DNA of 55,649 nucleotides. It comes from Thermoplasmata archaeon. GTDB lineage: Archaea > Thermoplasmatota > Thermoplasmata > Thermoplasmatales > Thermoplasmataceae. A model generated the notes under the pieces. That model ran no database searches. It saw nothing but the letters and a program-made list of their open reading frames with translations, and was not told where the DNA came from. The translations under genes were made by a program, and so were the position numbers. Positions 6,533 through 45,198 of the stretch are shown one piece after another (position 1 is the first letter of the stretch; the number at the start of each line of letters is the position of its first letter). The DNA lies in assembly GCA_021797735.1 (NCBI GenBank), contig JAJZZE010000034.1, positions 1-55,649 on the forward strand, read 5' to 3'.

Positions 6533-6769
6533 GATTTATCATGTTATATTTCTGTTAATCATCTTAACTCCCACAGTTCAAAATAGGCTCCTTTCTTAGA
6601 TAGTTATTACCGTTATTACAAGTTTATTTGTCTAAAAAGTTTCAGGTATATCTAAATCATCAATATTTACAGTATATTTGTGTATCACTGCTGGCAATTT
6701 TTGATGATTGCATCTTACTTATATATGAAATATCCAATATTAACTTGTTACTAAAATCCTATAGAAAAT

Positions 6770-6777
6770 TTTATATA
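6770..6777 (+). promoter_or_regulatory. TATA box of the secreted precursor-like gene
   Basis: TTTATATA lies about 23 bp before the ATG at 6796 and is followed by an ATT-repeat spacer. The same box plus ATT spacer, over about 26 nt, occurs before the secreted-protein gene on the minus strand at 45175-45182. Confidence 0.5.
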
Positions 6778-6795
6778 TTTATTATTATTATTATT

Positions 6796-7326
6796 ATGGG
6801 AACTAACATAATAAACCCAGATTATAGAAATTTGTTGGCTATTGAGAAATCCCATATAAATAGTATGGGTCTGCATGAACATAAGAAACATAATAATTAT
6901 ATAAAAGCTATAATATCAATATTTGCAGTTGCAGTTTTGTTATCTACTATGGGTGTGCCTATTTACAATGGAATATATGCGATGGAAAATAATGCATTGC
7001 CATATGATATGGGAATTGTAGCTACAAGCAGTAACAGTGCAACAGCATCGGGACACGCAGGAAATCTTATTTTATTTGAGCTATATAACTGGGGAGAAAT
7101 TCCAACTGCCGCAGATGTGGGTAATATGATTGTTGGAGCATTAATTAATTTAGGATTGACTTATTTGTTGCCTGCTTCTGAAATTACAACAATATCTCAA
7201 ACAATTGTGATAATGATGGGAGAAGATGGCACCACAACGATAGTTGTGGAGACAGCGATAGATAGTACAGCATTGGTAACTCCGGGAGTTGCAGAGGCCT
7301 TGGCTATGGCTATAATAGCAGCGTGA
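6796..7326 (+). CDS. Secreted hydrophobic precursor-like protein
   Basis: I do not recognise a family. The open frame could begin at 6628 with TTG, but the TATA box at 6770 places a leaderless start at ATG 6796, giving 176 residues. A charged, His/Lys-rich N-terminus of about 35 residues precedes one hydrophobic segment (about 36-57, ending near NGIYAMENN), like a signal peptide or anchor. The rest is Ala, Gly, Thr and Ile rich with almost no basic residues, and the tail is strongly hydrophobic (AEALAMAIIAA). A membrane protein, an M48-type protease and an RDD-SpoIIM-like protein follow at once. A leader-bearing secreted peptide processed and exported by its neighbours is an attractive but unproven reading. 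Confidence 0.55.
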   Translation: MGTNIINPDYRNLLAIEKSHINSMGLHEHKKHNNYIKAIISIFAVAVLLSTMGVPIYNGIYAMENNALPYDMGIVATSSNSATASGHAGNLILFELYNWGEIPTAADVGNMIVGALINLGLTYLLPASEITTISQTIVIMMGEDGTTTIVVETAIDSTALVTPGVAEALAMAIIAA

Positions 7327-7333
7327 TGTTTAT

Positions 7334-7747
7334 ATGATACTTGACACTTACAATACTACAAAAAAAGGTTCTGTAGTATTTTTTATTTTTATACTTTTTT
7401 CTGCAATATTCTTGCTTTATGAAATTATATCAGCACTTCCATTTATAGTCAATTTTTTTGGTTCAGTCTTAATGCTTGGTTCATTCATTATTTTTAATAT
7501 TAAAAGCAATAATAAAGTTCCATATATTTACGGTAGATTTCTCTATTATATGCTTGGCGTACCATATTTCATTTTTTTGATATATCTGTTTAGGGGTATA
7601 AACATATATTATATGTTTATATTTTTTTATACTATTCTATTAATAACACCTTTTATACTACTTATAATGGTCTATAGCATTAAAAATTATTATAGGCAAA
7701 AAATACCTATGCATTTCATAAATCATTTTCGTTTAATTATAAATTGA
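7334..7747 (+). CDS. Four-helix integral membrane protein, unknown
   Basis: A 137-residue protein made almost entirely of four predicted membrane helices (about residues 14-34, 37-56, 70-88 and 92-113) with a short basic C-terminus. No family recognised. ATG 7334 is 7 nt after the stop of the precursor-like gene, and the end overlaps the protease start as TTGA, so it belongs to the same transcript. Its size and place suit an immunity or transport partner of the secreted protein, but the sequence itself shows no function. Confidence 0.6.
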   Translation: MILDTYNTTKKGSVVFFIFILFSAIFLLYEIISALPFIVNFFGSVLMLGSFIIFNIKSNNKVPYIYGRFLYYMLGVPYFIFLIYLFRGINIYYMFIFFYTILLITPFILLIMVYSIKNYYRQKIPMHFINHFRLIIN

Positions 7748-8355
7748 CGGAAACATATAATCAAAAATTTAAAGAAGTTATTAAAAATAAAACAATGTTA
7801 ATCTATACATATAATGGTGATAAAGAATCAGGAGGTATTTATACAAGGAATCATTTAAACAAGCATTTTATTTATATTGATTTTAAGGTATTCAATATGC
7901 TAGAAGATGATGAAAAGGATGCGGCAATGCTACACGAAATAGGGCATATAATGCATAAAAACTATATTAAGATCCTTACAATAATAATGATAGTTTTTTC
8001 TTTAATATTTGCAATATCATCTTTAATATATTTTTCCATAAATAGCGCGCGTTTATTTAGTATACACGGGCTAATCTTTAATATTATCATTTTTATTCTA
8101 ATGATTATTTCCATAATAAATGTAAAATACTTTAAAAAAATTCTTTATTCCGCAATTAACAAAGGTGAAAAAAAAGCGGATTATTTTGCATTAAATTATA
8201 TAAAACCGGAAAGCCTTAAAACAACACTTGCAAAACTTTATAGTTATTCAGAATATAATCAACCAGAATACTATTTATTTCTTGAAAAATATTTTAATAT
8301 AAGATCTTCAAATATAAACAATGTAACGCATATAATTATCAAGCGGTATAAATGA
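7744..8355 (+). CDS. M48-type membrane zinc metalloprotease
   Basis: A 203-residue protease. The zinc motif HEIGH is at 64-68 (His64, Glu65, His68), followed by two membrane helices (about 77-98 and 106-126). The third-ligand motif EKKADYFA starts at Glu142. This helix-HExxH-two helices-ExxAD order is that of HtpX/M48 peptidases, here in a short form. The TTG start overlaps the previous stop. In this cluster it may cleave the precursor encoded at 6796. M56/BlaR-like peptidases are the alternative family. Confidence 0.75.
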   Translation: MTETYNQKFKEVIKNKTMLIYTYNGDKESGGIYTRNHLNKHFIYIDFKVFNMLEDDEKDAAMLHEIGHIMHKNYIKILTIIMIVFSLIFAISSLIYFSINSARLFSIHGLIFNIIIFILMIISIINVKYFKKILYSAINKGEKKADYFALNYIKPESLKTTLAKLYSYSEYNQPEYYLFLEKYFNIRSSNINNVTHIIIKRYK

Positions 8356-8419
8356 CGTTAACATACATATCAAAAATTATGGTAAAAAGGAATAATAATT
8401 TAAACGGAAGGTAAAAATC

Positions 8420-9456
8420 ATGAAACTTCTTAATATCAGTGAAAGATTTTTTATATATACAACAGAACAATCCTTTCTAATTTCCATAACATCTATGATA
8501 TCACTGTATTTCCATATAAAAGCAGCGTTTTTAGGATTTTTTGAAGCATACAGAATAAGTTTTTCCAGTGGTTTTATGCATAATTTGATACAAAATTTGG
8601 ATTGTTGAATCTTCTAATACTTTTTCTGATATCGTTATTATACTATATGATGGAATCATTAACTGGAAAAGGCATAGCCGAGATTATATTTAAACAGAAA
8701 ATAATAAATAAACATAATATTGGGAAAAGAAAATATATAAAATTATTACTGGTAAGGGATATAATAAGGGCGTTCTTCATATCAAACATAATCAATTCAT
8801 TATTTTTATTATTCCATGGAAAGATGCTGCAGAATGAATATGATTACAGAACAAACATGTTTACCATAAAAAATGGTGAAGAAAATAAAAAATCATTATT
8901 TTTCCAGTATTTTTATGCGTCAATAATAATTTACTACTCCATATTCGTTATTTTATTGTTTATATATACATTTGTAGTTCCAGTTTCCACATTGAAATCT
9001 TCTGGGGATATAAAATCAAAATCATCATTCCATTACTGGGTATTTTTCCATACAATACTGTCAAATAACATGACACTGGATGTATTTGAATATATAATAG
9101 GTGGATTCAGCATTTTTACAGGGACATTTATAACTCTGTTCTCATCAAATATTTTAGAAACTACAATTATGGCATCACTGAATCGTGCCCATGGTACAAC
9201 TTCATTTGTAAAATACATTCTCCCACAGTTCTTCCCGGAAACTCTGGGTTATGTTTTTGGATTAGCCGCTGCAATGGTTATAACAGATGTAATATTAAGT
9301 TATATCCAGGCTGCCATAAGAAATGAAAAATATACGCAGTTCGCAAGCCGTTCTAGCAGGCTTGGTTATGTAATAATTGCCTACGTTAGTTTATCATTTA
9401 TACTGCTTTTTATCGGCGCATTAATAGAGGCATCTCTGGGAATTTATAACTTCTAA
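8420..9456 (+). pseudogene. RDD-SpoIIM-like membrane protein, split by a -1 frameshift
   Basis: Two frames, 8420-8608 and from about 8584 to 9456, make one protein when joined by a -1 shift near 8593-8599, giving about 345 residues. The first frame carries the start of an RDD domain (ISERFFIY plus a membrane helix). The second continues with YYMMESLTGKG and a charged helix ending NEYDYRT, typical of RDD. It then has a SpoIIM-like C-terminal region of several helices including LPQFFPETLGYVFGLAAA. The ATG at 8420 has a GGAAGGT Shine-Dalgarno. At the joint AAATTTG fits the X XXY YYZ slippery pattern. It may be a programmed shift, a disabled gene or a sequence error. RDD and SpoIIM calls rest on motif resemblance. 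Confidence 0.6.
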
Positions 9457-43847: not shown

Positions 43848-44309
43848 TCAATCATTGTAATTTTTATGGTTAATATTATGAATTATATATATAACGCCTA
43901 AAGCAATCTCAACCAGCACAAGGATGACATCTATAAATGACAGTGGTATTATTATCAGGCTATATGGGAATTTTAAAAATCTTGGAATCACGGAATCTAT
44001 AAAAAAGATTATTATTGCCATAACACCAATGATTATTAAATTTCTTTTCAGTTTATAATGACCATCACCTTCACTTTCCGAAAAATTATTCCTCTTTTTT
44101 TCTAGAGGAAAAATATATCTAGTGTTTATGTAAATAATTACCATAACTAAAGTTAGAGTAGCCCAAAAAATGAAGGAAGTTGCTTTATTGTGGCCATTTA
44201 GTCCTAATAAAAATTCTAATAAAAATTCTAATACGACAAGAAATATGAAAACTATAAATACAATCGTTCTATATTTTTTATATTTTTTTATTTTATCTTT
44301 TTCTATCAT
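43848..44309 (-). CDS. Four-helix membrane protein next to a secreted protein
   Basis: A 153-residue protein with four predicted helices (about 13-35, 43-60, 89-106 and 115-140) and a charged loop between the second and third. No family recognised. ATG 44309 is chosen because GGAGG (44317-44321, minus strand) sits 7 nt before it; the open frame extends 17 codons upstream into the preceding gene. It follows the secreted-protein gene by 25 bp and is surely co-transcribed, repeating the secreted-plus-membrane-protein pairing seen at 6796-7747. Confidence 0.6.
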   Translation of the reverse strand: MIEKDKIKKYKKYRTIVFIVFIFLVVLEFLLEFLLGLNGHNKATSFIFWATLTLVMVIIYINTRYIFPLEKKRNNFSESEGDGHYKLKRNLIIIGVMAIIIFFIDSVIPRFLKFPYSLIIIPLSFIDVILVLVEIALGVIYIIHNINHKNYND

Positions 44310-44334
44310 TATTATTCCTCCTATGATGAAATAT

Positions 44335-45198
44335 TTATGGAATGTCTCCGTTTCCTGCATATAATGTTATCGGCTGTGACCTATAATTACTTAAGTCGTA
44401 TGGTACAGTGTTATACGGTGAACCAATACCTGGATAACCCATCCACCCCCATTCGGTATAGGTGAAAAACACACCATTATCGCCGCCCCAATTATCTTCT
44501 AATTTTATTAATCCGTCTCCAATTGATATAATATAGCCCACTATTTCACCCACAGGTCCACCGAATAGAGCTATAAGTCCGGCATCTGCAATTATCAGAA
44601 GCATAAGTAGATTTGTCATACCCTGATTAAAAGCATCAGCGTATCCATTAGACCCCGAGCTATAAACACCGCATAAATCAATATAAGCATCATTATTATT
44701 TTTTGTTGATGTTGCATTTGTATTATTTGTTATTGTTGTTATATTATAATGACCTGATTTTGAATATAACGGTATTACACTGTAATTAGAACTTTTATTA
44801 TCCGTACTATTTACCATTAATGATTCATGAAATAGTTTATCATTTTTATATACATGTAATAATGTTCCCGTAACATTATTGGTACCATTGTATAATGTAT
44901 AACCCATTGTTATCGTTGTATTTTTATTTGTATTATTTGCAACATCAGGATTTGTATTATTAAATATTGTCGTGTGACTTATGCTATCAACCTCCTTAAA
45001 ATTGTATTTTTCAATATAATGACCTAATTTAGGTATAGTTACCTTATTACCATGATTATTTTCGGGATTATAATACATTAATCCTGTAAAGCCAACCATT
45101 ACCATAATTGTAGCAAATGATATTGCTATAATAATTTTTTTATTTATGTGCTTTTCTATAATAATAATAATAAATATATAAAAATTTTTGTAGAACAT
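44335..45198 (-). CDS. Secreted protein with hydrophobic C-terminal domain, unknown
   Basis: Up to 287 residues, no family recognised. A signal or anchor helix KKIIIAISFATIMVMVGFTGLMYY is followed by an Asn/Thr-rich outer region with many glycosylation-type sites. Next comes a hydrophobic stretch (GMTNLLMLLIIADAGLIALFGGPVGEIVGYIISIGDGLIKL, about 200-240) and a tail rich in Gly, Tyr and Trp. The start is unclear: ATG 45198 lies upstream of the TATA box at 45175-45182, so a leaderless message would begin near 45152. The codon there that fits best (before NKKIII) is ATA at 45147. It heads a two-gene transcript. Confidence 0.55.
   Translation of the reverse strand: MFYKNFYIFIIIIIEKHINKKIIIAISFATIMVMVGFTGLMYYNPENNHGNKVTIPKLGHYIEKYNFKEVDSISHTTIFNNTNPDVANNTNKNTTITMGYTLYNGTNNVTGTLLHVYKNDKLFHESLMVNSTDNKSSNYSVIPLYSKSGHYNITTITNNTNATSTKNNNDAYIDLCGVYSSGSNGYADAFNQGMTNLLMLLIIADAGLIALFGGPVGEIVGYIISIGDGLIKLEDNWGGDNGVFFTYTEWGWMGYPGIGSPYNTVPYDLSNYRSQPITLYAGNGDIP
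45175..45182 (-). promoter_or_regulatory. TATA box of the secreted-protein gene
   Basis: TTTATATA on the minus strand, followed by the same ATT-repeat spacer as the promoter at 6770-6777 (about 26 nt shared). It lies inside the longest open frame of the gene it should serve, which argues that the true start is downstream and not ATG. Confidence 0.4.

Follow-up and report, generated by a model that had tools for sequence, protein, structure and literature searches.

A putative archaeocin-like exported-peptide cassette with core-specific M48 proteases in Thermoplasmatales

Circular bacteriocins of groups i and ii derive from leader-core precursors with a hydrophobic, Cys-free, helical core that ends in a conserved hydrophobic C-terminus, and their clusters encode a SpoIIM/DUF95 membrane protein that is class-defining (PMC13289728). 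Genome mining has placed M48 peptidases in two bacterial clusters of this class, for which no enzyme of leader cleavage or cyclization had been identified as of 2021 (PMC8659200). Among archaea, cassettes of arCOG01996 (SpoIIM/COG1300) were described earlier from Methanococcales, Thermococci and Archaeoglobi; in the passages that treat them, they combine a SpoIIM-family protein with small, fast-evolving membrane proteins in a predicted conflict or defense role, as the present locus does, but feature Yip1-type proteins rather than M48, with leader/core modularity going undescribed there (PMC4158269, PMC5898192). The CAAX/Abi genes of bacteriocin loci likewise place a multi-TM metalloprotease, implicated in immunity, processing or reception, beside the peptide gene (PMC9298176), although its fold and motifs (EExxxR/FxxxH) differ from those of M48 (HExxH...ExxAD). 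Halocins and sulfolobicins were the only described archaeocins as of 2023 (PMC10105419), and antiSMASH with BACTIBASE gave no bacteriocin locus in one Thermoplasmatales genome (PMC10354927). As exported antagonistic proteins or peptides of archaea, halocins and sulfolobicins resemble what we propose below, but they belong to other lineages and are set apart by description rather than by sequence. We know of no M48/SpoIIM cassette associated with them. A literature search, with the survey by Makarova et al. 2019 (mBio) outside its scope, found no paper uniting SpoIIM, M48, archaeal and membrane protein; that survey reportedly covers archaeal peptide weapons and might list the families of the cassette.

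Here we analyzed a 55,649-nucleotide stretch of DNA from a Thermoplasmata archaeon (contig JAJZZE010000034.1; the whole stretch is hereafter called the window), which carries a cassette of three genes encoding a leader-bearing precursor, one membrane M48 protease and one RDD/SpoIIM membrane protein. With modest confidence, we favor a new archaeocin-like exported-peptide system that acts like a bacteriocin cassette, with a core-specific M48 protease for maturation, immunity or both. Judged by sequence, it appears to represent a type of archaeal bacteriocin not yet described, a signal being less likely. If this holds, diversified peptide warfare would extend to hyperacidophilic archaea.

Gene content and reading frames of the cassette

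The earlier note had described four genes adjoining without gaps. The four-gene reading was ruled out, as two of these "genes" are halves of one M48 gene, which leaves three genes, two of them frameshifted. What had been taken for a separate four-helix membrane protein is the N-terminal half of the protease (Table 1): in G007, a relative in the same genus that shares neighbors with the window locus, the orthologue is a single 340-aa ORF (L022:9133-10155) that unites the N-terminal TM helices with the M48 domain. Compared with that orthologue, the window gene lacks one A from an A-run near 7698, which splits its frame. The SpoIIM gene starts at 8420 rather than 8602, and a 1-nt deletion near 8583 divides it into two ORFs, its orthologues being intact. 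Since both genes are frameshifted, the window copy is probably decaying or misassembled, and the two indels could represent either real decay or draft-assembly errors. The genes do not adjoin throughout, as a gap lies between 8355 and 8420. The remaining parts of that description stand, namely the leader-bearing, nearly base-free precursor, the short M48-type domain with its HEIGH...GEKKAD motifs and the SpoIIM domain, with RDD character recognized through the L098 homologue (PF06271, E 4e-7). The window SpoIIM protein is 72% identical to a paralogue at G000:C15.

Table 1. Features of the cassette, its promoter and the second exported-protein family (window positions unless a locus is named)
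Feature	Position	Strand	Basis
Promoter block TATAGAAAATTTTATATAT and, adjoining the start codon, (ATT)5; TATA-like box at -26	6760..6795	+	
Precursor, 176 aa: leader 1-90, predicted core 91-176	6796..7326	+	ORF; homologues; 2 paralogues in genome
Predicted core peptide, 86 aa	7066..7323	+	Cleavage after Asn90 inferred
N-terminal multi-TM half of M48 protease	7334..7747	+	99% DNA identity to intact G007 gene
Catalytic half of the same M48 protease: HEIGH, TM hairpin, GEKKAD	7744..8355	+	PF01435, E 3.8e-9
First ~60 residues of RDD/SpoIIM membrane protein	8420..8608	+	Matches start of intact 345-aa orthologues
Remainder of RDD/SpoIIM membrane protein	8602..9456	+	PF01944, E 9.9e-8
Small multi-TM protein after second-family member	43848-44360	-	
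Second-family member	44335-45198	-	
Small multi-TM protein after second-family member	L101:1393-1779	-	
Second-family member	L101:1790-2626	-	
Second-family member	L102:1370-2833	-	

The precursor has no Pfam or NCBIfam family match, and its two paralogues in the same genome show 62% and 53% identity. Its leader comprises a basic N-terminal segment, a single TM helix (residues 34-58) and a conserved ...ENNALPYD (NALPY) motif, while the core ends in AIIAA and contains nine Asp/Glu and no Lys or Arg. A start at TTG 6628 was ruled out, homologues and promoter both placing the start at ATG 6796. The start of each core was placed just behind the D/N found ahead of a hydrophobic pair and Tyr/Phe, and a D/N stands before the hydrophobic pair in 23/25 precursors. 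In the variable clade, the cores so defined are 77-93 aa long and Cys-free, with 0-3 K/R and a GRAVY of about +1; their C-termini follow (I/V/L)(I/V/L)(A/G)(A/Y/W/F) with few exceptions, whereas their interiors are unrelated between core types. AlphaFold2 models them as five helices; mean pLDDT is highest for the G000:C15 core (75.7), and the window core reaches 69.3.

All 25 M48 proteins retain HExxH (25/25), PF01435 supports the assignment to peptidase family M48, and hydropathy indicates two or four TM segments ahead of the catalytic domain in most of them, a layout that should put the active site on the cytoplasmic side, as in HtpX. The third zinc-ligand position (ExxAD) holds Glu in 17/25 and Gln in 8/25, including all of core type C, and some of the M48 proteins may for this reason be inactive as proteases. 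Those with Gln, which keep HExxH, lie at L020, L023 (two), L024, L027, L029, L092 and L096 and are possibly pseudo-proteases or enzymes with an altered metal site. The family may accordingly differ in its action, cleaving in general or perhaps only binding in some members.

Distribution of the cassette and exchange of its cores

The cassette was recovered from about 20 genomes of related acid-loving archaea, almost all belonging to a single Thermoplasmatales family, with precursor and M48 and usually also SpoIIM. Searches with profile A1 detected the precursor in 16/117 genomes of the order and 14/400 sampled genomes of the class, every match being confined to one family. The genome of the window itself encodes three precursors with near-identical leaders, each with M48 and SpoIIM genes downstream. 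An M48 gene or its remnant lies downstream on the same strand in 29/29 precursors with readable downstream DNA, with a SpoIIM gene or stub next in 23 of them, which argues against a chance arrangement. The linkage across other Thermoplasmatales that the earlier note had envisaged is borne out: the cassette is conserved in many genomes, and its homologues are not scattered.

Tandem arrays reach up to four modules (G008), and SpoIIM stubs of 65-80 aa between some modules are as expected if recombination adds modules. Several cassette members are pseudogenized; at one decayed locus (L030:6933-7532, G009), a precursor remnant runs straight into an M48 fragment. Transposase-like genes adjoin the cassettes in L021, L024, L028 and L029, consistent with high turnover. 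The cassette had no match in the plasmids searched or in IMG/VR, giving no sign of plasmid or virus carriage there, and assignment to a known defense system was rejected in the absence of a PADLOC match.

The three-gene set also occurs in a second, slower-evolving clade (G003, G009, G001, G013, G020 and G025), where the gene order is either unchanged or differs by a divergently oriented precursor, and where the core measures about 70 aa. The profile of this clade aligns with that of clade I (hhalign 92%, E 6.6e-7) and, searched separately, picks up members of clade I as well. In G059, from another family of the order, an M48-SpoIIM pair lies at a contig end. At two loci in which no M48 gene was detected, we also observed an RDD/SpoIIM-like protein of ~490 aa that has a hydrophobic protein with a leader (~160-237 aa) close by (L111:4201-4914 (-) with L111:4957-6444 (+); L110:3575-4063 (-) with L110:620-2086 (+)), a possible third cassette variant.

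To resolve how the components evolve relative to each other, pairwise identities were compared over 25 modules by Mantel tests, with near-duplicates removed for a non-redundant set. Leader and SpoIIM similarities are tightly correlated (r = 0.93), as are, to a lesser degree, those of core and M48 (r = 0.74; 0.47 in the non-redundant set, p 0.0002), a co-variation that could partly be linkage because the two are adjacent; leader and core are uncorrelated (r = -0.02, non-redundant set). Tandem or paralogous pairs within genomes mostly have leaders 83-97% identical, with cores at 18-51% and M48s at 23-63%. On the M48 tree, core types are explained by a minimum of 4 changes, a value as low as which was reached in 0/200 shuffles, whereas core type maps onto the SpoIIM tree as by chance (51/200 shuffles). 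As a point against co-variation, cores within core type B are about 40-79% similar while the M48s drop to about 30-43%. As far as these comparisons go, leader and SpoIIM follow the genome, and core and M48 vary together, independently of the leader.

At the DNA level, nearly all paralogue pairs within a genome are 93-100% identical to the left of a sharp breakpoint and 39-53% to its right. The breakpoint falls at residues 85-89 (SGHAG motif) in four paralogue or mosaic comparisons, and at residue 45, 64-67, 76 or 97 in others. In copy A of G007, the leader DNA as far as residue 89 is 100% identical to that of copy B in this genome; from residue 87 on, its core is 99% identical to the window core. 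This mosaic is direct evidence of core exchange at the leader/core boundary, and the overall pattern is one of bacteriocin-like modular diversification. In terms of its sequences, the cassette is a constant TM-helix leader with interchangeable hydrophobic cores, each having its own M48 type, and with SpoIIM in the genome backbone. Apart from its gene count, the proposal that a hydrophobic peptide is exported and has processing and membrane genes of its own is therefore well supported by the linkage and by a constant leader joined to a hypervariable, exchanged C-terminal part.

The same data bear on whether the precursors are processed at all. HtpX-type M48 enzymes are quality-control proteases, the cores are hydrophobic enough for membrane insertion, and precursor cleavage is itself a prediction, all of which would suit small unprocessed membrane proteins under diversifying selection for surface or antiviral variability, with M48 as their quality control. 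However, general quality control would predict neither the sharp leader/core junction, nor a conserved C-terminal motif on otherwise unrelated cores, nor a strict M48 partner for each core type, and we regard this explanation as improbable.

An Agr-like pheromone system with pherotypes would likewise join an invariant leader to a core that varies together with its processing enzyme, the core being the signal and M48 a co-diversifying, core-specific maturation enzyme. Membrane metalloproteases of the CAAX type take part in maturing or assisting both signals and bacteriocins (PMC9298176), and a promoter block with variable spacing (see below) could fit such a role. Yet the cassette lacks a receptor or regulator gene, a core of 77-93 hydrophobic residues would make a rather long signal, and multiple unrelated cores in one genome fit an arsenal of weapons better, so that we give signaling little credence. 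Antagonism is preferred given the several unrelated cores per genome, rapid decay and the exchange of cassettes.

Relationship to circular bacteriocins and proposed mechanism

The archaeal cassette shares with circular bacteriocins a precursor of leader and core, a hydrophobic, Cys-free, helical core with a conserved hydrophobic C-terminus, and a SpoIIM/DUF95 membrane protein in the cluster. In contrast, its leader of ~90 aa has its own TM helix (2-48 aa in known systems), its cores span 77-93 aa in the hypervariable clade, its SpoIIM is fused to an RDD domain, and M48 is present in essentially every cassette rather than in two clusters. Within the cassettes, the gene lists examined show neither an ABC transporter or ATPase gene nor a distinct gene for immunity; the lack of a transporter is a further difference from circular bacteriocin clusters.

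We considered whether the cores form a true circular bacteriocin family, homologous to AS-48 or circularin, with M48 as the missing leader peptidase or cyclase. Besides the SpoIIM partner and the Cys-free helical core, some cores end in sequences, VIAW and AIAAY among them, that resemble the C-termini of AS-48 (VIAW, confirmed) and circularin A (AIAY), and a clade II stretch, MGLEPSVAILVADALGAAGWI, aligns gap-free to FGIPAAVAGTVLNVVEAGGWV of AS-48. That alignment, however, scores 13.1 and is beaten by 3/100 shuffles, placing it within controls. More broadly, hmmscan gave the cores no Pfam or NCBIfam match to known bacteriocins, and hhalign of core profiles against group i and ii profiles (in which the AS-48 and acidocin B sequences were confirmed against PDB chains) scored within shuffled controls, whereas the two known circular groups, aligned with each other as a positive control, reach 79% probability. 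Foldseek of the core models, which are of moderate confidence, against the PDB returned nothing below E 2 and no circular bacteriocin. With sequence and profile tests negative, no support from the fold search and no ABC-transporter gene in the cassettes, we rejected direct assignment to circular bacteriocins, and homology to them seems very unlikely. By analogy, the cassette would nonetheless work like a circular bacteriocin cluster, membership being unsupported by sequence. An M48 tied to each core type, beside SpoIIM, is a testable candidate for the missing enzyme of circular bacteriocins.

Under the archaeocin-like reading that we favor, the leader would insert the precursor into the membrane, where the membrane M48, its active site exposed to the cytoplasm like that of HtpX, would free the core near the (D/N)-(I/L)(I/V)x(Y/F) junction. 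Alternatively or additionally, M48 may shield the producer from its own peptide. SpoIIM would aid export or maturation, as in circular bacteriocin clusters, and the freed core, possibly cyclized head to tail, would attack the membranes of competitor strains. New specificities could come about when recombination between the flanking leader and SpoIIM regions swaps core and M48 together. The most specific form of this proposal, a new archaeal bacteriocin class, possibly cyclized, in which M48 is both maturation enzyme and immunity determinant and core-M48 modules are exchanged, is speculative and in our view rather unlikely to hold in full.

Promoter block and a second exported-protein family

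All three precursors of the window's genome have (ATT)4-5 immediately 5' of the start codon. The sequence ATTATTATTATTATNG has 6 occurrences genome-wide, 3 before precursors and 3 at the start of a second exported-protein family, and members of both families have the block TATAGAAAAxTTxATATAT in common. The promoter block of Table 1 also precedes other precursors of the genus, where 4-8 ATT units put the start of the TATA-like box at -23 to -37; over all members that have a tract, ATT number ranges from 4 to 9 and the box shifts accordingly between -23 and -38. These upstream sequences suggest a common regulon in which promoter spacing varies. In G078 (L090, upstream of 2070 and 4044), a different short tandem repeat, (ATATT)n, fills the stretch from TATA box to ATG, as though such tracts had originated independently at this position.

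Members of the second family (Table 1) share the N-terminus MEKHINKKIIIA(I/M)SFATIM..., followed by a variable remainder, and have the (ATT)n tract at their start; a small multi-TM protein comes after two of them. The family is possibly another conflict or surface system under the same regulation. At one site in each family (G000:C18:69283, equivalent to L021:6284, for the precursors and window 45157 for the second family), ATA stands after the ATT tract instead of the expected ATG, reflecting either differing start codons or silenced genes.
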